This document shows positions 305-30,576 of a DNA stretch of 34,733 bases, piece by piece; positions within the stretch are counted from its first letter, which is position 1, and the number at the start of each line of letters is the position of its first letter. Source of the stretch: a virus. The stretch spans positions 1 to 34,733 of IMG/VR virus record IMGVR_UViG_3300032308_001756; one strand, given 5' to 3'. The notes under the pieces are model-generated. The model did not search any database and was not told the DNA's origin. It was given only the letters and a program-made list of their open reading frames with translations. The translations under genes and the position numbers were made by a program.

Positions 305-3139
305 ATGAATGTAATTAATAATAATAAACTTGGAATAGATTTACCAATTTTTGAAATGTTAAGAGATGCGCAAGGGGGCGCTAGTTCAGCTGTGAGTTCT
401 ACTTGTACTAGCATGAATTCAGTTATGCATGTAAACTTTGGTCGGTTCATTTATTATTTGAATGCAGCTGCGAGTTTTTGGAAATATGATACATGGACAG
501 ACACATATCTTCAGCTTGCTTCACCACCAATAACACCGGCTACATTTTCAACTATGCGCTTTTCTTCGGGGGCTGGAATCGAAGGTAATATAATATCTGC
601 TGGTTCTAACACTGCTTATATACCAGCTTATTTCGGAAAAGCTTTAAAAGGATATGATATATCAATAATCGCCGGAACAGGTGTTGGTCAAAGAAGAACT
701 ATTACTGATGTTGCCGACGCCACTATAGAAGATATAGCAGTGGCAACAACTGTGTCAAACACACTTGGCACATTAAACTTAACAGACGCTACCAAAAACT
801 GGAGAGTAAACCAATGGGTGGGATTTCAAGCTAGAGTTATACAGGGTTCTGGTATAGGACAAGTAAGAAGAATAATTAGTAATAGTATTAATACACTTGT
901 TTTCGGTGATTCCACTTTGTCGGCGTATGAAGTTTTTTGTAACCCTTCTATTTTTTCCCCGGCTATTGCTACAACTGCGGGTTCTCAGACAGTAGTGCAA
1001 ATCGAAGCTTCTATTGTGACGGTGGATACCCCATGGGCAATCACCCCGAATAACACTTCTAGATATAAAGTTGAAGGAGGTACTGTATTTTTAATTTCTT
1101 CTGCTGCCGCAACACCATTTTATACTTTTCAACAATATGACACATTGAGTGATATATGGTATATTAGATCAGCTGTTACTAACAATATAGCTGCCGTTGG
1201 AACAGACGCCTCATTGGAGAGAACGGGTGACCAATCTTCTATATGGGACAGAGGTAGAGTTAGTATATCCGGTACAGTAAATAGTTTATCAGATACCACA
1301 AAAAGTTGGAACACTAACCAGTGGGCCACAGGTAGCAACTCTTATTATGTTAGATTTTGGAGTGGGGAAGGCGAAGGGCAGCAAGCTAAAATATTATCTA
1401 ATACATCTACCACTTTGACATATGAATCTATGTCTGCGGTACCTAATAATAGCACTCAATATTTTATTGATGGATTTGATGCGGGTAAAGCGACAGCCGG
1501 TTCAAATATTTCTATAACTGATTCTTCTAAAAACTGGAGTATTAATAGGTGGAAAAATTATGTAGTTAGAATAGTTAGTGGAAGTGGTAACGGCCAGGTA
1601 ATTCCTATTTTATCAAATAACTCAAGTTCAATAAACTTTTACAGGACTTCTTCTGCTGTATTAGATAGTACTTCTGTATATAATATAACAGCAGACCCGG
1701 ATAAACTTTATTTAACTTTGGGTTCAAATACCACGTTCAATATTTTAAATCTGACAGATGATTTACTGACATTAGGAAGAATAGAAGATAGTGGTGTAGC
1801 TTGTAATGCGTCAGTTAGGTTAGGGGCTAATAAACAACAGGCAATAACTTCATTAGTTTTTACCGGTACTTCCGCAACGGCATCAATGGCTGTAGCACAT
1901 AACTATAGAATTAGTCAATCTGTAACTGTTCGTGGGGCAACAGACGCAAACTTCAACGGCACTTTTACTATAACTGGTGTGCCTAGTACAACGACCATTC
2001 AGTACACTATGGCAGGAACACCTGTGTCAACCACATTAGTGGGTTCTCAAACAACTACCACTTTATTCGATGCCACTAAAAACTGGGTGACTAACCAATG
2101 GGCGGGATTTATTATTTACATGAATACTAGTGCTATGACTGCAGCAAGTGGTCTTGTTAATGGTCAAAATATGATTATATTATCAAATACTGCAAATACT
2201 ATAACTTTTAATTCACCGAATACTGCGCCCACAAATGGGGTGACTAGATACGTTATAACTAGAAGAGATACAATAGGAAACATGTTTTCAGGTTTTGCTT
2301 CCGGAACACAGTCTACTACTCTTCTGACAGATGTTAATACAGCATTTACTGGTTCTGCTTCAATTGCTGGTAATAATATGACTGTGACGGCTATAACTAG
2401 TGGTTATTTAGGAATAGGTTCTATGATAACTGGTAGTGGTATTTTAACGGGTTCGTTTATCACCTCTTTTGGACCGAATACTTTTGGTGGCACCGGATCA
2501 TATACAATATCAGTATCACAGAGTTTTGCTCTTGGACCTATATCCTCATCAGGATGGATGACAAACTTTCATGCTGGTAGAAGGGTCAAGATTATTTCGA
2601 CTCAAGGACAAGGACAAGAAGCTTCGATAACAAGTAATACCGCTAACGCATTAACATTCGGTGCAATAACAACTGCTCCTGGCAACGTAAGTTCATCATA
2701 TTCTATATTACAGCAACCCGCAAGAGGTACTGGGATAGAATTCAACTGGGGATGTAATACTAGTGACCCTAATTTGAAAGGAAGAAGAATGTTTATACCT
2801 AGAGGTGGAGGTATAGCTAATATTGATTATATTGATATACCTACAGATAAAGTGGAACCTATGGTTATTACTCCGCAAAGTGAAACTTGGACTACTGGAA
2901 CTATGTGGACATATGACGGTGATGATAGGATATATTTTACTAAAGATGCTACCATGAGATTTTATTATATGGATATTGTTACCAACACTATCTATGGCGC
3001 TGGTTTCGCTCCTTTTGGGACTGGTGCGGCTATTATAGGTAATAGAATGGAAGTGTTTTCTACTCCAGACGGTTTAAAATATTTATGGTTTGTTAAACAT
3101 ACATCGGCAAACGTTATGAGATCAATGTTATACTATTAA
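305..3139 (+). CDS. Large repeat-built virion protein (944 aa)
   Basis: A Ser/Thr/Asn/Gly-rich protein without cysteine clusters or membrane segments. It contains at least four clear copies of a module of about 40 residues that starts with (L/I)xDxxKxW-xxNxW, continues with a strand of the type VRIxSGxGxGQ, and ends with ILSNxxxTLxF. The copies begin near residues 159, 329, 405 and 587, with a weaker fifth copy near 749 (WMTNFHAGRRVKI). Repeated beta-rich modules of this kind are typical of tail, baseplate or fibre proteins. The C-terminal 120 residues (from about 820) are non-repetitive. It lies directly upstream of the small-protein/sheath/tube block. The exact structural role is not determined. 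Confidence 0.75.
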   Translation: MNVINNNKLGIDLPIFEMLRDAQGGASSAVSSTCTSMNSVMHVNFGRFIYYLNAAASFWKYDTWTDTYLQLASPPITPATFSTMRFSSGAGIEGNIISAGSNTAYIPAYFGKALKGYDISIIAGTGVGQRRTITDVADATIEDIAVATTVSNTLGTLNLTDATKNWRVNQWVGFQARVIQGSGIGQVRRIISNSINTLVFGDSTLSAYEVFCNPSIFSPAIATTAGSQTVVQIEASIVTVDTPWAITPNNTSRYKVEGGTVFLISSAAATPFYTFQQYDTLSDIWYIRSAVTNNIAAVGTDASLERTGDQSSIWDRGRVSISGTVNSLSDTTKSWNTNQWATGSNSYYVRFWSGEGEGQQAKILSNTSTTLTYESMSAVPNNSTQYFIDGFDAGKATAGSNISITDSSKNWSINRWKNYVVRIVSGSGNGQVIPILSNNSSSINFYRTSSAVLDSTSVYNITADPDKLYLTLGSNTTFNILNLTDDLLTLGRIEDSGVACNASVRLGANKQQAITSLVFTGTSATASMAVAHNYRISQSVTVRGATDANFNGTFTITGVPSTTTIQYTMAGTPVSTTLVGSQTTTTLFDATKNWVTNQWAGFIIYMNTSAMTAASGLVNGQNMIILSNTANTITFNSPNTAPTNGVTRYVITRRDTIGNMFSGFASGTQSTTLLTDVNTAFTGSASIAGNNMTVTAITSGYLGIGSMITGSGILTGSFITSFGPNTFGGTGSYTISVSQSFALGPISSSGWMTNFHAGRRVKIISTQGQGQEASITSNTANALTFGAITTAPGNVSSSYSILQQPARGTGIEFNWGCNTSDPNLKGRRMFIPRGGGIANIDYIDIPTDKVEPMVITPQSETWTTGTMWTYDGDDRIYFTKDATMRFYYMDIVTNTIYGAGFAPFGTGAAIIGNRMEVFSTPDGLKYLWFVKHTSANVMRSMLYY

Positions 3140-3328: not shown

Positions 3329-3360
3329 TTTGGTTTTCTTAATATTTTATATTATATTTG
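3329..3360 (+). promoter_or_regulatory. Bacteroidota-type promoter (TTTG-N20-TATATTTG)
   Basis: TTTG at 3329-3332 and TATATTTG at 3353-3360 are separated by exactly 20 nt, matching the known Bacteroidota primary-sigma consensus TTTG / TAnnTTTG. Transcription would start a few bases before the ATG at 3373, which also argues that the TTG at 3358, inside the -7 box, is not the start codon of that gene. Confidence 0.7.
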
Positions 3361-3966: not shown

Positions 3967-6237
3967 ATGCCAGAACAAATAATTTCACCCGGTGTTTATC
4001 AAACTGAGAACGATCAATCATATGTACCCCCGGGTCAAGCAGACGCCGGTTTAGCCGTAGTTGGGCCCACAGTTAAAGGTGCTGCCTTTGTTCCCACCGA
4101 TATTACATCGTATTCTGAATACGTGGCCGCTTTTGGAGCTGGCGGTGATACATACGTTCCTCAAACTGTTTTTAATTATTTACAAGCAGGAAATAGTGTA
4201 AAAGTTACTCGTGTGTTAGGTAACGGTGGATGGCAGTATGATACTACCAACAAATTAGTTGCTGTAGTATCTAGTTCTGTTATATTGGCTGTTATGTACC
4301 CATCTAAAAATGAGAACTCTACTACTTCAAATTTGAATAACACTCGTTTTTCAACCTTGCTTCCAGGTAGCTCCAGCTTTAATAGTCTTCGTTTTGAACT
4401 TTCTGGTTCAACCACAGACGTATTGAAATATGTTACTGCTTCTTTTAATCCCGCTGATAATAACTATATAACTAAAGTATTAGGTACAGATGCAAATTAT
4501 CAGACTTCATCTGCTTTTCCTTATTTATTCTTTGGTAATTTTATCACAAGTTCAGTTGGAGTTGGTAGTTACACAAACTCTAGTGCTTCTTTAGTACTTA
4601 GCACCACTAGCTGTACTTTCACTAGTTCATTCCCCGGTGGTTACGACCATGCACAAACACCTTGGATTATATCCGATGGTGGAATTAAATTGTTTAAATT
4701 CCATCACTTATCAGATGGTTTCCAAAGTAATAAAGATATTAAAATCTCGCTTTCTAATATAACTAAATATAGCAGCAATAGTGTTTATTCTACTTTTAAC
4801 GTCTTAATTAGAGACGCTAAAGATACGGATAAAAACCAGTCTGTATATGAGCAATACATAGGAGTTACTTTAGACCCAAATTCACCTAATTATATAGCTA
4901 GAGCTATCGGTGATAGATATTCTAGATACGAGTATACTACTAATAAGGTGATCGATTATGGTAATTATAGTGCCATATCTGACTACATTCGTATAGAAAT
5001 GGATGGTGGTGTAGACGCCGGTGCTGTTTCTCCCAACGTTATACCCAATGGATTTGAAGCTGTTTATGAGCCTATTGCGGGCTTTGGAACAAACTTCCTT
5101 CCTTCTGCCTCAATGATACAGAGTAATACTTCATCTATAGTTTATTCTGGATTTGATTACGCTAATACAGATAACGTTTATAACTACTTAAATCCGATTC
5201 CAACTCAAGCTGGCGTTGGAAGAAATGCTAATTTCTCTATCATATCTCAATTTGATAATAAATTTACAGTTCCTTTCCAAGGTGGAACCGACGGAATGAA
5301 CTACAATGTCATTAAGAAAATGGGTGCAAATATTGCCTCAAACGGTACCAATTTGTTTGGATTTAATCTATCTACAAGTACAACTGCCGGTAGTGTGGCC
5401 TATAATACCGCTTTCAATATACTTTCTAATACTGAGATGTATAGATTCAAATTGCTGACGGTTCCTGGCGTATTAGAGCAGTACCACTCAGCTGTAACCC
5501 TCCTGGCTCAAACCATGGTAGAAAACAGAACTGATGCCGTTTATTTGAGAGATTTGACGGGTGTTGACCAAACTATCGCAACTGCTGTTGCAACTATATC
5601 AGGTGTTGATTCTAGCTACAGTGCTACTTACTATCCTTGGGTTCGTGTTAAAGATATAAATTCTAATAGAGAGATATATGTTCCACCTAGTGTGGTTGTA
5701 CCTCAAGCTTACGCTTACAATGATAAAGTGGCAGCTGAATGGTTTGCTCCTGCTGGATTGAATAGAGGTGGATTGGGTGGTGTTATCGATACTAGAATTC
5801 GTTTAAGTAAATCTGATAGAGATACTTTGTACGCTAGTCGTATCAACCCGATTGTTAAGTTCCAAGATTCTAACGTTGTGATATGGGGTCAAAAAACTCT
5901 TCAAGTTAGAGAAACCACATTGAACAGAATAAATGTTAGACGTTTGTTAATTGAACTGAGAGACTTCATTGGTAATTCTTCTAGAAACTTTGTATTCGAA
6001 CAGAATACATTAGCTACCAGGGATAAATTCTTAGCAATTGTTACTCCTTACATGGAATCAGTACAATCTAGACAAGGTCTTTATGCATTCAGAATTCAAA
6101 TGGACGAAACTCTGAATACTAATGATGTGATTGATAGAAATCAATTGGTTGGTAAAATATACATTTCTCCGACTAAAACTATCGAATTCATCTTGTTAGA
6201 ATTCAACATTCAACCGACCGGTTCAACGTTTGTATAA
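3967..6237 (+). CDS. Tail sheath protein (contractile tail, gp18-like)
   Basis: 756 residues. The N-terminus (SPGVYQTENDQSYVPPG, then AVVGPTVKGAAFVPTDITS and YLQAGNSVKVTRVLG) is the characteristic opening of contractile-tail sheath proteins. The C-terminal 200 residues carry the conserved sheath core, with NREIYVPPSVVVPQAYAYND, GLNRGGLGGV, VIWGQKTLQ, VRRLLIELRDFIG and a final strand ending TGSTFV. The middle section is phage-specific and Ser/Asn-rich. Sheath subunits polymerise around the tube and contract on infection. The tube gene follows 52 nt downstream, the usual order. The length is somewhat above T4 gp18 (659 aa), consistent with inserted surface domains. Confidence 0.95.
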   Translation: MPEQIISPGVYQTENDQSYVPPGQADAGLAVVGPTVKGAAFVPTDITSYSEYVAAFGAGGDTYVPQTVFNYLQAGNSVKVTRVLGNGGWQYDTTNKLVAVVSSSVILAVMYPSKNENSTTSNLNNTRFSTLLPGSSSFNSLRFELSGSTTDVLKYVTASFNPADNNYITKVLGTDANYQTSSAFPYLFFGNFITSSVGVGSYTNSSASLVLSTTSCTFTSSFPGGYDHAQTPWIISDGGIKLFKFHHLSDGFQSNKDIKISLSNITKYSSNSVYSTFNVLIRDAKDTDKNQSVYEQYIGVTLDPNSPNYIARAIGDRYSRYEYTTNKVIDYGNYSAISDYIRIEMDGGVDAGAVSPNVIPNGFEAVYEPIAGFGTNFLPSASMIQSNTSSIVYSGFDYANTDNVYNYLNPIPTQAGVGRNANFSIISQFDNKFTVPFQGGTDGMNYNVIKKMGANIASNGTNLFGFNLSTSTTAGSVAYNTAFNILSNTEMYRFKLLTVPGVLEQYHSAVTLLAQTMVENRTDAVYLRDLTGVDQTIATAVATISGVDSSYSATYYPWVRVKDINSNREIYVPPSVVVPQAYAYNDKVAAEWFAPAGLNRGGLGGVIDTRIRLSKSDRDTLYASRINPIVKFQDSNVVIWGQKTLQVRETTLNRINVRRLLIELRDFIGNSSRNFVFEQNTLATRDKFLAIVTPYMESVQSRQGLYAFRIQMDETLNTNDVIDRNQLVGKIYISPTKTIEFILLEFNIQPTGSTFV

Positions 6238-10499: not shown

Positions 10500-11138
10500 A
10501 TGAAAAAAAATTACACACACATCGTTTTGTTAATCGATAGATCCGGGTCAATGACCTCCATTAAAAAAGATATGGAAGGGGGGCTAAAAGAATTTATTGA
10601 AAAGCAAAAATTAGAATTAGGTAAATGCACTTTCACTGCAGCACAATTCGACCATACATATGAAGTAATTCATAAAATGAAAAATTTACAAGAGGTAGAA
10701 GACATCACTATAAACCCAAGAGGTAACACCGCATTAATTGATTCAATGTGTAAACTGATTGATGAAGTCGGTAATGAATTATCTGAACTACCAAAAAACG
10801 AAAGACCCGATAAAGTATTGTTTATTACTATTACAGACGGCGAAGAAAACGCTTCTCGTGAGTTTACCAACGAACAATTAAAAGAAAAAATTAAACTCCA
10901 AGAAGAGGCATACAAATGGTCTTTTACTTACATCGGTGCTAACCAAGATGCTTTTGGTGTTAGTAGAAATTTCGGAGTTAAAGGCAATAGTACTTTAAAT
11001 TTTAGTGCTACAAGTAAAGGATCAGGTGTTATGTTTGACTCTTTAAATACGGCAACCGTAAGATATAGAGGTTCTGCGATAACAGAAAGTTTTAATTATA
11101 CAGTACAAGAACAAGAAACAACAGAAAATGCAAAATAA
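10500..11138 (+). CDS. von Willebrand factor type A (vWA) domain protein
   Basis: 212 residues with a complete MIDAS metal site: D13-x-S15-x-S17 in LIDRSGSM, T77 in NPRGNTAL, and D113 in ITDGEE. The Rossmann-like core covers residues 5-150 (FTAAQFDH, KVLFITITDGEE, WSFTYIGANQDA). No signal peptide or membrane segment is present, so it acts inside the cell or in the virion. vWA domains mediate metal-dependent protein contacts. Proteins like this are common in phage genomes without a settled role. It overlaps the next gene, a tail-tube-like protein, by 11 nt, indicating translational coupling and perhaps a shared complex. Confidence 0.85.
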   Translation: MKKNYTHIVLLIDRSGSMTSIKKDMEGGLKEFIEKQKLELGKCTFTAAQFDHTYEVIHKMKNLQEVEDITINPRGNTALIDSMCKLIDEVGNELSELPKNERPDKVLFITITDGEENASREFTNEQLKEKIKLQEEAYKWSFTYIGANQDAFGVSRNFGVKGNSTLNFSATSKGSGVMFDSLNTATVRYRGSAITESFNYTVQEQETTENAK

Positions 11139-12992: not shown

Positions 12993-13035
12993 AAAAATTA
13001 GGCATTTTTTTTAATCGCCTTTTAATAAATTTTTA

Positions 13036-13068
13036 CCCTTTTAGTTGTATAGCTAAAGGGGTTTTTTA
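13036..13068 (+). terminator. Rho-independent terminator bounding the RNA island on the left
   Basis: CCCTTTTAG (13036-13044) pairs with CTAAAGGGG (13053-13061), 9 bp with one G-U, and a TTTTTT run follows. It isolates the upstream gene cluster from the promoter arrays. Confidence 0.88.
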
Positions 13069-13205
13069 TTTGGGGGGTATGAATTTAGAAAGCATTTAAT
13101 GTCGTATATACGTATATATTGATGGTAGTCGAAAAAATAGCCTCGCAAAGAAGAGTGAGGTGCGCGATCCCAAATGTTAAAATTTTGTTAATAGAGCTAC
13201 AAATA

Positions 13206-13296
13206 TTAACACTTTTTTAACGAAAATTGTTAACAAACTTTAACAAAATCTTTTTTGATTTTAACATTTTTTAACGCAAAATTATTTGTATATTTG
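13206..13296 (+). promoter_or_regulatory. Promoter module 1: six phased TTAAC boxes plus TATATTTG
   Basis: TTAAC occurs at 13206, 13217, 13230, 13240, 13261 and 13271 (spacings 11, 13, 10, 21, 10). TATATTTG, matching the Bacteroidota -7 element, begins at 13289, 18 nt after the start of the last box. There is no TTTG at the -33 position; the last two boxes occupy that zone. This suggests that a DNA-binding protein lying on one face of the helix replaces or assists -33 recognition. A short hairpin, GTAGG/CCTAC (13315-13329), would lie in the leader. Confidence 0.65.
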
Positions 13297-13337
13297 TATT
13301 GTTGAAAGGGAATAGTAGGCACTACCTACACACAATT

Positions 13338-13418
13338 TTAACATTTATTTAACATTTGGTTTTAACAATACTTTAACATTCGTTAACATTTTTTAACACA
13401 AAAATTGTTGTATGTTTG
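13338..13418 (+). promoter_or_regulatory. Promoter module 2: six phased TTAAC boxes plus TATGTTTG
   Basis: TTAAC occurs at 13338, 13349, 13362, 13373, 13383 and 13393 (spacings 11, 13, 11, 10, 10). TATGTTTG begins at 13411, again exactly 18 nt after the start of the last box, as in module 1. The segments around the last two boxes and the -7 element are nearly identical in the two modules, so this is a tandem duplication. The leader downstream carries a 9-bp hairpin, AGGTAATAT/ATATTGCCT (13438-13461). Confidence 0.65.
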
Positions 13419-13556
13419 TAAGGTGTTAGGGTAACAAGGTAATATATACCAATATTGCCTACCCACAACGATACAGATAGTTAATTCACACGTTGTATCA
13501 ACTTTTATTGCAGGTTTGACCTACCTTATTGGGTATTAAACAGCCCGATTATTCAT

Positions 13557-14165
13557 ATGAGTGATTCAATTGAAGCTAGTAACGAGCTTACGTTACAAGT
13601 AGTAGGAAAAGCCAAAGGGGTAGAAACTGTTTTCACTATCCCACCTGTTGACCTGTCTAATGTTGATAACAAAGACAACAAGCCAACGAAGTTAATTTCG
13701 GAAGCACTGAAGTCATTGTCTAATGCATTGGGTAAGCAGCGGTTGACTGATTGTCACGTGGTAGTAGGTTGGAGGGGACGTAAGTCATCCTTTGCCATCA
13801 AGCCATCAGACGCATTCAATCGGGTAAGTCGCGGTATGTATGTATCTCTATCAACGGTTCTGTTCCCACAGAATGCGTATGAGTACAACACGAACAAACA
13901 TCAAGACCCACTTGTAGTTTTAATCGCGCGCATCTTTGGGTTGAAAAGTGAAAACGGAGTATCTTTTCTTGAGTTCCGCACCGCAATCAAATTCAAATTT
14001 GACGAGGTAGAAACCATTGAGAAGATTCAAGAGATTCAGGCACAGCGTGAACTTTTGGAAAACTCCCCCTTGCCTCAACTGTTGGCACAACTGAAGGATG
14101 TTCGCAAGGCATTCAAAGAAAGGCTGAAAGAATTGCAGGCATTACCGGCTCCTACTACGGCTTAA
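13557..14165 (+). CDS. Unknown protein encoded ahead of the giant RNA (202 aa)
   Basis: Starts about 140 nt downstream of promoter module 2. The protein is soluble, with an N-terminal beta-rich part (LTLQVVGKAKGVETVFTIPP), a central segment with VVVGWRGRKSSFAIKPSDAF and LVVLIARIFGLKSENG, and a C-terminal coiled-coil helix (about residues 150-195, IEKIQEIQAQRELLEN onward) ending LPAPTTA. I recognise no family. Its GC content and codon choice (CGC, CTG, GGG) are clearly higher than in the neighbouring AT-rich genes and resemble the RNA region that follows, which suggests that the two arrived or evolve together. It could bind that RNA, but this is inference. Confidence 0.7.
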   Translation: MSDSIEASNELTLQVVGKAKGVETVFTIPPVDLSNVDNKDNKPTKLISEALKSLSNALGKQRLTDCHVVVGWRGRKSSFAIKPSDAFNRVSRGMYVSLSTVLFPQNAYEYNTNKHQDPLVVLIARIFGLKSENGVSFLEFRTAIKFKFDEVETIEKIQEIQAQRELLENSPLPQLLAQLKDVRKAFKERLKELQALPAPTTA

Positions 14166-14696
14166 CAGCCGCCCCCTCAAACATTAGTGTTTATCTGTTT
14201 CGCTAACAGGAGGGGGGCTACAGGTTAACCATCCCTGTAAAATGTAGCACCACCATCGCTACATTCAAGGAAGTGTGTTTGTGTAAATGAAAAGAGGGCT
14301 TTCGAACAGCTCTATGACAGGGGCTGCATATTGTGGGCTAAAAGGTGGGGCTACATCATATACCAATGATGCCACTAATAACCCGTGCGACACGTGGCAC
14401 ATACCTAACAAATGTGTGTTCATAAGTGTGTAGTCGCACTATCCTAGAGGATGGAACAATGCCAAGTTCCTAATGAGGTGACCATTCGCATACCAGTGAA
14501 TGACTAACCATCTCAGTACCTTGTTTGACAGGTAGTGATAGATTACATCTCTTATCCCGTTGGAAGCACAGCAATCTGCAGACTCGCAGAATCAATAGTA
14601 CAGTGGTGTACTCCCCCGGGACGTAAAGGCCAAGGGAGACATATGCCTATGCAGGTCGTATGTCAGTCTTTACAATGTGTGGGAAAATCGCTAGTT

Positions 14697-14727
14697 CCTC
14701 TATGCTATACTAGGCATGGGGGTTTTC
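14697..14727 (+). terminator. Internal terminator-like hairpin in the RNA region
   Basis: CCTCTATGC (14697-14705) pairs with GCATGGGGG (14714-14722), 9 bp with three G-U pairs and an 8-nt loop, followed by TTTT-C-TG-TTTT. If active, it would define a first RNA of about 560 nt after the CDS and leave the downstream part to read-through or a separate start. Confidence 0.45.
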
Positions 14728-15477
14728 TGTTTTACGTTATACGTATTACAGCTACTTTTAGTAGGGCACACGCGGGGCAGGTACATGCAAACTAATAGCC
14801 ATTATACAATCGATTCGGAACAACCTACTAAAAAATTAAACAACCCACGTGCATGGAATTATCCGCCTTGCGTTTCCTGTTTTTTGCCTATCATAGCAAA
14901 ATCTAAGCAGTTAATGTAAGGGGGCTAAGATATTTTTATATCGTCATTTCCCTGCATGAGAAATCCTTTGCAAAGGTACTACAAGTGGAATGTAGTATCA
15001 ATGATAACACTAAGGTAGTGAATACGATAAATATGTGCGTATGGGTAATCATAGCCTACAGGTTTGGCTATTCCCCAGAATATGCCCCACTGATTCTTAA
15101 AAGCAACGTCATAGCCCAATGACGGTGAATTAGTTCGGGACTTGATTACCAATGAATATATGAGCTTGTTGGTATAGCTGGTGGCTTCGTACTGTAATAT
15201 GGTGAGGGGAATATATCACCGAATGAGTACGTCGTAGGAACCCAAAGAAAGAAAACGGGTATGAGGGATTCTATCCGTATTTTGCTATTGTTGTGTATGT
15301 CTGCACACATTAGTTTTTCAAGAGAAAACACGTAAGACAATATACATTATATACCTATGCTTATAGGGCTGCGTAATTTATTATAATTACAGCCATAAAA
15401 TAAAATAAGGCATATATAGGTATTATTATGTATAGAAAAATAGTTAGTATGAATTTAGTTTTATGCTAATTATTAGG

Positions 15478-15535
15478 CGGGGTAGATGGTCAAAGCCGGC
15501 TTAACCGGTACTTCGGTTCGATTCCGAATACCCCA
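15478..15535 (+). ncRNA. Minimal tRNA-like structure (no D arm) at the end of the RNA region
   Basis: GGGGTA (15479-15484) pairs with TACCCC (15529-15534) as an acceptor-like stem. TTCGG-TTCGATT-CCGAA (15512-15528) is a perfect T arm with the conserved TTCRA loop. Only 27 nt lie between them, and they hold one hairpin, GCCGG-CTTAA-CCGGT (15495-15509), instead of separate D and anticodon arms. At about 58 nt this is too short for a normal tRNA. It could be a tRNA mimic recognised by CCA-adding enzyme, RNase P or RNase Z, or a decayed tRNA. A further hairpin, CGACGC/GCGTTG, follows (15536-15550). Confidence 0.6.
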
Positions 15536-15587
15536 CGACGCATTGCGTTGATATATATTTGTTTGTTGGGGTTTAAGTTTGGTTGAT

Positions 15588-16393: not shown

Positions 16394-16432
16394 AATATCT
16401 TATAGCATTAACGTATCCTTAACAATAAACAC
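16394..16432 (+). repeat. 39-nt leader repeat, copy 1
   Basis: This sequence, beginning AATATCTTATAGCATTAACG and ending AACAATAAACAC, is identical over 39 nt to 17972-18010. Both copies sit immediately upstream of a start codon (16434 and 18020). It may be a promoter/leader module copied between genes or a recombination site. Confidence 0.75.
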
Positions 16433-17824: not shown

Positions 17825-17983
17825 ATAGTCTTTTTTATAAAATTTATTTGTTATTCTCTTATTTGGACTGCCGTATACATAGGTAGAGATAAGAACAGTG
17901 ATATTAAATTGTTCAGTAAAAATTGGTGGATTGCTGTTTTATTAGTATCGATATCTACGATTACACTAATGAATATCTTATAG
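17822..17983 (+). CDS. Small membrane protein (53 aa)
   Basis: Two hydrophobic stretches (MIVFFIKFICYSLIWTAVYI and WWIAVLLVSISTITLMNIL) flank a short charged loop (GRDKNSDIKLFSKN). Its last four codons and stop lie inside copy 2 of the 39-nt leader repeat, so the gene end and the next leader are fused. Function unknown. Confidence 0.55.
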   Translation: MIVFFIKFICYSLIWTAVYIGRDKNSDIKLFSKNWWIAVLLVSISTITLMNIL

Positions 17984-18010
17984 CATTAACGTATCCTTAA
18001 CAATAAACAC
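17972..18010 (+). repeat. 39-nt leader repeat, copy 2
   Basis: Identical to 16394-16432. Here it overlaps the 3' end of the preceding membrane-protein gene, which suggests that the repeat was inserted or copied as a unit rather than conserved only as an untranslated leader. Confidence 0.75.
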
Positions 18011-28764: not shown

Positions 28765-28847
28765 GGCTAGGTGGCGGAGTGGGATACGCATGGTAAGTCT
28801 ATTTTATATAGGCTCACCACACACAGGTTCGAATCCTGGACTAGCCG
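28765..28847 (+). tRNA. tRNA-like gene with an extended anticodon arm
   Basis: 83 nt. Acceptor GGCTAGG pairs with ACTAGCC (last pair mismatched), the D arm is GCG...CGC, and the T loop TTCGAAT sits on a CAGG/CCTG stem; discriminator G. The anticodon arm is abnormal: GGT-A-AGTCTAT pairs with ATAGGCT-C-ACC, an 11-bp arm (28791-28817) instead of 5 bp. If the usual 7-nt loop ATTTTAT is read, the anticodon would be TTT, but the framework is not that of tRNA-Lys. Identity unresolved. Confidence 0.55.
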
Positions 28848-28883
28848 CGAATATTTAGCAATTAATAATTTAATATAATAATT

Positions 28884-30474: not shown

Positions 30475-30551
30475 AGTCAGGTGGCTGAATTGGTGACAGA
30501 GGCACTCCGTTAAACAACGGGTGGATGCAGGTTCGAATCCTGTCCTGATTA
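30475..30551 (+). tRNA. tRNA-like gene with a lengthened anticodon arm
   Basis: 77 nt. Acceptor AGTCAGG/CCTGATT, D stem CTG/CAG, and T arm GCAGG-TTCGAAT-CCTGT are all present, with discriminator A. In place of a 5-bp/7-nt anticodon arm, CAC-T-CCGTT pairs with AACGG-GTG around an AAAC loop (about 30500-30522). TAA (Leu) could be read within GTTAAAC only if the upper stem opens. Framework is shared with 27422 and 30796. Confidence 0.6.
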
Positions 30552-30576
30552 CTAATTATTAAAAAATAAAACAAAA

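Follow-up and report, generated by a model that had tools for sequence, protein, structure and literature searches.

The viral contig IMGVR_UViG_3300032308_001756 (34.7 kb), analyzed here over its positions 1 to 34,733 (hereafter, the window), carries two clusters of six TTAAC boxes, each of them followed by a TAnnTTTG motif. We propose that these clusters belong to a duplicated pair of sigma-A promoters, arranged in tandem in a Bacteroidota phage and dependent on an activator. At each promoter, an array of TTAAC half-sites would stand in place of the usual -33 element, and a response regulator of the OmpR/PhoB family would occupy the half-sites head to tail along a single helix face, holding RNA polymerase at the TAnnTTTG -7 element. 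We give this reading a probability of roughly 55%. The leading candidate for the bound protein is the host PhoB, which would make the promoters fire under phosphate starvation; we place the odds for PhoB itself a little short of even.

The boxes of both arrays lie on the plus strand. Array 1 (13206 to 13275) has boxes starting at 13206, 13217, 13230, 13240, 13261, and 13271, and array 2 (13338 to 13397) has boxes starting at 13338, 13349, 13362, 13373, 13383, and 13393; all twelve positions had been given exactly in the first-pass annotation of this DNA. Counted in nucleotides (nt) from the start of TAnnTTTG (13289 and 13411), the boxes are found at -83, -72, -59, -49, -28, and -18 in array 1, and at -73, -62, -49, -38, -28, and -18 in array 2. 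The last box begins 18 nt before the motif in both arrays, as had been described. The box-to-box steps are 11, 13, 10, 21, and 10 nt in array 1 and 11, 13, 11, 10, and 10 nt in array 2. The spacing of 10 to 11 nt initially reported applies to 7 of the 10 steps but not to the two 13-nt steps, which follow the second box of both arrays as had been recognized, nor to a 21-nt step, which represents two helical turns with one box absent. A minus-strand pair of TTAAC sequences (13176 to 13180 and 13187 to 13191; inverted repeat I1), missing from the first-pass annotation, is located just upstream of array 1; its members are 11 nt apart and directed away from the array. The tandem array pair is the only one in the window. 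Boxes were also observed in two near-identical leaders, AATATCTTATAGCATTAACGTATCCTTAACAATAAACAC, at about 16395 to 16430 and 17973 to 18008 ahead of two different genes; these leaders carry two TTAAC boxes 11 nt apart, without a -7 element.

Shuffling experiments addressed the clustering. In 20,000 dinucleotide shuffles of the 226-nt region, the number of boxes averaged 1.7 and never exceeded 8, compared with the 12 observed, and six boxes within 90 nt were not reached in any of 300 shuffles of the whole window. The clustering is local, since TTAAC is not enriched across the window as a whole (135 occurrences observed versus 153 expected). The 38-nt segments containing the proximal boxes and the -7 element (13261 to 13298 and 13383 to 13420) are 87% identical, and the two promoters therefore look like duplicates, in line with the tandem duplication proposed earlier.

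The -7 elements are TATATTTG for promoter 1 (13289 to 13296, plus strand) and TATGTTTG for promoter 2 (13411 to 13418, plus strand). Both conform to TAnnTTTG, which is the ordinary -7 consensus of Bacteroidota sigma-A (PMC9723704). If the element occupies -12 to -5 as described in that work, transcription would be expected to start near 13301 and 13423. No TTTG or TTTGG -33 element is present at the usual place in either array promoter, whereas two other TAnnTTTG sites of the window, at 3353 and 9683, have TTTGG exactly 24 nt ahead of the -7 start; the lack of a normal -33 box had been noticed in the first reading. That reading had invoked cooperative binding of a regulator or of a phage sigma factor or activator. 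A regulator acting at a tandem duplicated promoter is well supported. In contrast, we rejected the phage sigma factor because the -7 element is the normal Bacteroidota one, common to other promoter-like sites of the window. Our literature search for TTAAC combined with TAnnTTTG in Bacteroidetes yielded no paper.

A first genome scan for three boxes plus TAnnTTTG returned mostly Bacteroidota matches, and it also picked up genes resembling a Na/Pi cotransporter in Clostridioides and PstS in a Chthonomonadaceae genome, both named by reading the sequence only. Because of these phosphate-type genes, we analyzed the DNA upstream of 40 pst operons across Bacteroidota. Loci were chosen by PstC; when Flavobacteriaceae loci were selected with only PstS (PF12849), most matches were LysR-type and few pst promoters came up. 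When 5-mers recurring at steps of 7 to 15 nt were counted with no word preselected, step 11 alone stood out, represented by TAACA (12 loci), TTAAC (7 loci), and CTTAA (5 loci). Distances between TTAAC pairs, measured from 6 to 30 nt, fell 16 times at 11 nt and 12 times at 22 nt but at most twice at any other value, and no such peak was found at other Bacteroidota loci. The host boxes are located at -48, -37, and -26 from the -7 element, often with a fourth at -15. A search without pst context detected three TTAAC boxes plus TAnnTTTG in 20 of 395 Bacteroidota genomes, and behind these matches lie, among others, genes for PstS (two), phosphate-selective porins (two), and TonB-dependent-receptor-like proteins (nine, of which three were Pfam-checked). 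The literature searched contained no published Pho box consensus for Bacteroidota. The box computed here agrees in its TTAAC core with the cyanobacterial SphR site CTTAACCT, which has an 11-nt step (PMC1906773), and in its spacing with the PHO box, whose unit is 11 nt long according to a review (PMC4415409).

The TTAAC box of the window is the core of this computed Pho box. Judged by sequence, the host Pho box, which the first-pass annotation had not named, is the closest known binding site. Like the Pho boxes of PhoB, PhoP, and SphR, the window arrays are tandem direct repeats with a TTAAC core that lie on one helical face ahead of a promoter, although they comprise six boxes rather than two to four. 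The boxes at -28, -38, and -49 are within 1 to 2 nt of the hosts' -26, -37, and -48 positions and of the -27, -38, and -49 positions of many phages, array 1 being devoid of a -38 box.

The first-pass annotation had called for a scan of TTAAC arrays ahead of TAnnTTTG, and this architecture was indeed found in other phages. With the spacer left free at 4 to 30 nt, TTAAC triplets precede TAnnTTTG in at least 119 viral stretches, compared with 10 matches in a control with wider steps (12 to 14 nt), all counts of the viral scans being lower bounds. Among the matches listed, the last box is at -25 to -28 in 33 of 59 nonredundant sites, with peaks at -26 and -27, and all array classes share a common helical phase relative to the -7 element. 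The -28, -38, and -49 boxes of the window sit in this common viral register, while the -18 and distal boxes are extra. The “N13” class of the first scan was partly a selection effect, as illustrated by L007, in which another -7 match lies at the canonical distance. The geometry proper to the window (two boxes 10 nt apart, N12 to N14 to the -7 element, and one upstream box) was found only in a 93-kb contig and in one likely chance match. No DNA relatives of the region from 13000 to 14200 were found among phage records, and relatives identified through the tail sheath and through the protein encoded at 10500 to 11138 showed no synteny beyond about 9 kb and no array there. A cooperatively binding regulator is well supported by the recurrence of this box, with its helical register to TAnnTTTG unchanged, both at host pst promoters and across many viral contigs.

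The cultured Tenacibaculum phage pT24 carries such an array, with five boxes, ahead of its prohead scaffold gene. We also observed TTAAC arrays near positions 60662, 79856, 138957, 181870, 119275, and 211369 of pT24, in intergenic stretches of 550 to 650 nt; four of them resemble one another and have steps of 9 and 11 nt, and the other two show divergent clusters.

A distinct class of arrays has a period of 10 nt. The 93-kb contig, IMGVR_UViG_3300020045_020105, harbors at least six arrays of three to six boxes on one strand with an exact 10-nt period, in which boxes are found at -17, -27, -37, -47, -57, and -67. They precede genes for an NAD-dependent DNA ligase, a UvrD-type helicase, and other proteins. 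A box stands at -17 for six of the -7 matches, against an expectation of 0.15, and the arrays of this contig appear to represent a phage-wide promoter class. A second viral contig has nine three-box 10-nt arrays, which by eye are upstream of an apparent TTTGG -33 element. In host genomes, a conserved 10-nt TTAAC triplet precedes dapF at 16 of the 20 host sites fetched (one of them Pfam-checked). These dapF arrays, seen in 16 Bacteroidota genomes, belong to Flavobacteriaceae-type hosts, and the gap between array and -7 element has two lengths that differ by TAAT. They resemble the window arrays in their 10-nt steps and in the position of TTAAC boxes ahead of TAnnTTTG, but they consist of three perfect boxes with a variable gap to the -7 element (N16 to N21). 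The window departs from the rule of the 10-nt class, in which all steps are 10 nt and the last box is at -17: its proximal boxes are at -18 and -28, and its steps vary. Because 10-, 11-, and 13-nt steps are mixed, the window arrays fit neither the 11-nt nor the 10-nt class cleanly, with the proximal boxes at -18, -28, and -38 coming closest to the latter in sequence layout.

We consider PhoB the first candidate regulator for two reasons: host pst promoters have this box, and cyanophage promoters are already known to be bound by the PhoB of their host (PMC10976474; earlier cyanophage pstS work is cited therein). The cyanophage case similarly involves phage promoters with host Pho boxes. It differs by the host phylum and the promoter type, the window arrays are larger and more regular, and PhoB binding has been demonstrated in cyanophages, whereas here it is predicted. 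Several points weigh against our interpretation. The cyanophage study itself warns that predicted phage Pho boxes often are not bound. PhoB stays a candidate because the window does not keep to strict 11-nt spacing: only 3 of its 10 steps are 11 nt, while the host pst arrays show 11 and 22 nt only. The extra box at -18 has no counterpart at the host -15 position. Pho boxes control phosphate-related genes, whereas no known phosphate link was found for either the first downstream open reading frame (ORF), which has no known relative, or the candidate RNA in the ORF-poor DNA behind it. Finally, the Bacteroidota host is deduced to the phylum level only. As a second choice, the arrays could be bound by another host regulator of the OmpR/PhoB family, such as the one that would read the 10-nt dapF array.

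In the middle promoters of phage T4, a MotA box takes the place of the -35 element and the -10 element of the host is retained; the system relies on a single box and a phage-encoded activator. The window promoters are similar in that an activator box would substitute for the upstream element with the host downstream element kept, but they have phased arrays, and no activator was found. An activator encoded by the phage might nevertheless read the arrays as a phage-wide signal in the manner of MotA, with the Pho box likeness arising by convergence or capture. This is the most serious alternative, albeit an unlikely one. The strict 10-nt arrays of the 93-kb contig, at least six in number, and the nine three-box arrays of the second contig argue for it, as do the resemblance of the -18, -28, and -38 boxes to the 10-nt class and the loss of strict 11-nt Pho spacing. 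However, a Trans_reg_C domain was detected in none of seven array-bearing viral records, the window included, and blastp and Trans_reg_C searches revealed no regulator common to the window, the two array-rich contigs, and pT24. Moreover, hosts own 10-nt dapF arrays, so that a host factor could explain this class as well.

Alternatively, the boxes could be operators for a repressor that silences the tandem promoters, which we regard as improbable. The -18 box lies between the -33 and -7 positions, where a bound protein could block the polymerase, and the tandem operators with the minus-strand pair recall the general layout of phage control regions. Yet there is no -33 element to repress, unlike at other promoter-like sites of the window, most boxes are upstream, at -28 to -83, as for an activator, and the same boxes in host pst promoters belong to an activated regulon. 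Less plausible still is the possibility that the arrays are replication-origin iterons bound by a phage initiator, with incidental promoters. Origins typically consist of AT-rich DNA in which helically phased repeats run in both directions, and the divergent TTAAC clusters in pT24 intergenic DNA would agree with such a function, but the spacing to the -7 element is fixed, twice here and in other phages, one contig has several arrays that each precede a gene, and no initiator gene was recognized nearby. The notion that AT-rich sequence (32% GC in the window and about 26% in the array region) produced the arrays by chance has a negligible probability and was rejected, as the shuffles never came close and the same architecture is found in unrelated phages and hosts.

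With activator-dependent tandem promoters as the preferred reading, the transcript would comprise an ORF of 202 codons (13557 to 14165, plus strand) followed by about 1.2 kb of RNA that is probably structured. The ORF has a coding-like frame of unusual composition. Its product has no relatives in viral contigs, phages, Pfam, or PHROGs and none above noise among PDB sequences, and its single-sequence AlphaFold model was poor (predicted local distance difference test score, 49.5). The following stretch (about 14166 to 15350, plus strand) contains no convincing ORFs and has a GC content of 39 to 48% over most of its length, compared with the 32% of the window. A 981-nt portion folds better than 20 of 20 shuffled sequences (z = -5.2), and a folding scan with 250-nt pieces gave a mean z of -2.0 over 13.4 to 15.6 kb versus -0.6 elsewhere. 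No match at threshold level was found in Rfam over the arrays or the candidate RNA, and the searches made here turned up no homologue of this locus, arrays and RNA alike. Because this GC-rich, ORF-poor DNA folds better than its shuffled counterparts, the duplicated promoter probably serves a large structured phage RNA. A tRNA-like element is located just after it (15477 to 15536), with an acceptor and a T-arm, a shortened middle, and a subthreshold tRNA-Sec match.

The record is probably a fragment of a larger phage genome. The window encodes the tail sheath and tube of a contractile-tailed phage, an Hsp20-like protein, an RNA ligase, and several tRNAs. None of its 56 listed ORFs is preceded by a Shine-Dalgarno sequence, and the DNA ahead of start codons is A rich, a pattern also seen in Bacteroidota. 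The tail sheath is 48% identical to that of Flavobacterium phage immuto over half of the protein, and 40% identical over its full length to that of a phage deposited as a Microcystis phage. For the regions from 305 to 3139 and from 3967 to 6237, the best phage relatives are likewise deposited as cyanobacterial (Pseudanabaena phage Pam2, 47%; Microcystis phage Mel-JY01, 40%). These labels contrast with the Bacteroidota features of the window and raise the question of host labels or gene exchange. ARAGORN called tRNAs at 28765 to 28848 and 30475 to 30552, one with a CTA anticodon (labeled tRNA-Pyl), possibly an amber suppressor, and the other with a four-base anticodon.

The arrays provide a concrete candidate for gene timing in Bacteroidota phages, which is poorly known, and their analysis has yielded a computed Pho box for this phylum. 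The 10-nt class hints at a regulator that phages may have in common with the conserved host dapF promoter. More tentatively, and with odds below even, tandem TTAAC arrays may form a dedicated promoter class in many Bacteroidota phages, one in which they substitute for the -33 element and recruit a host regulator of the PhoB/OmpR family. Genes for phage replication, and in this window a large structured RNA, would then be tied to the phosphate or envelope state of the host. If host PhoB drives these promoters, the nutrient-sensing precedent of cyanophages would extend to another major phylum, in which such arrays are common.
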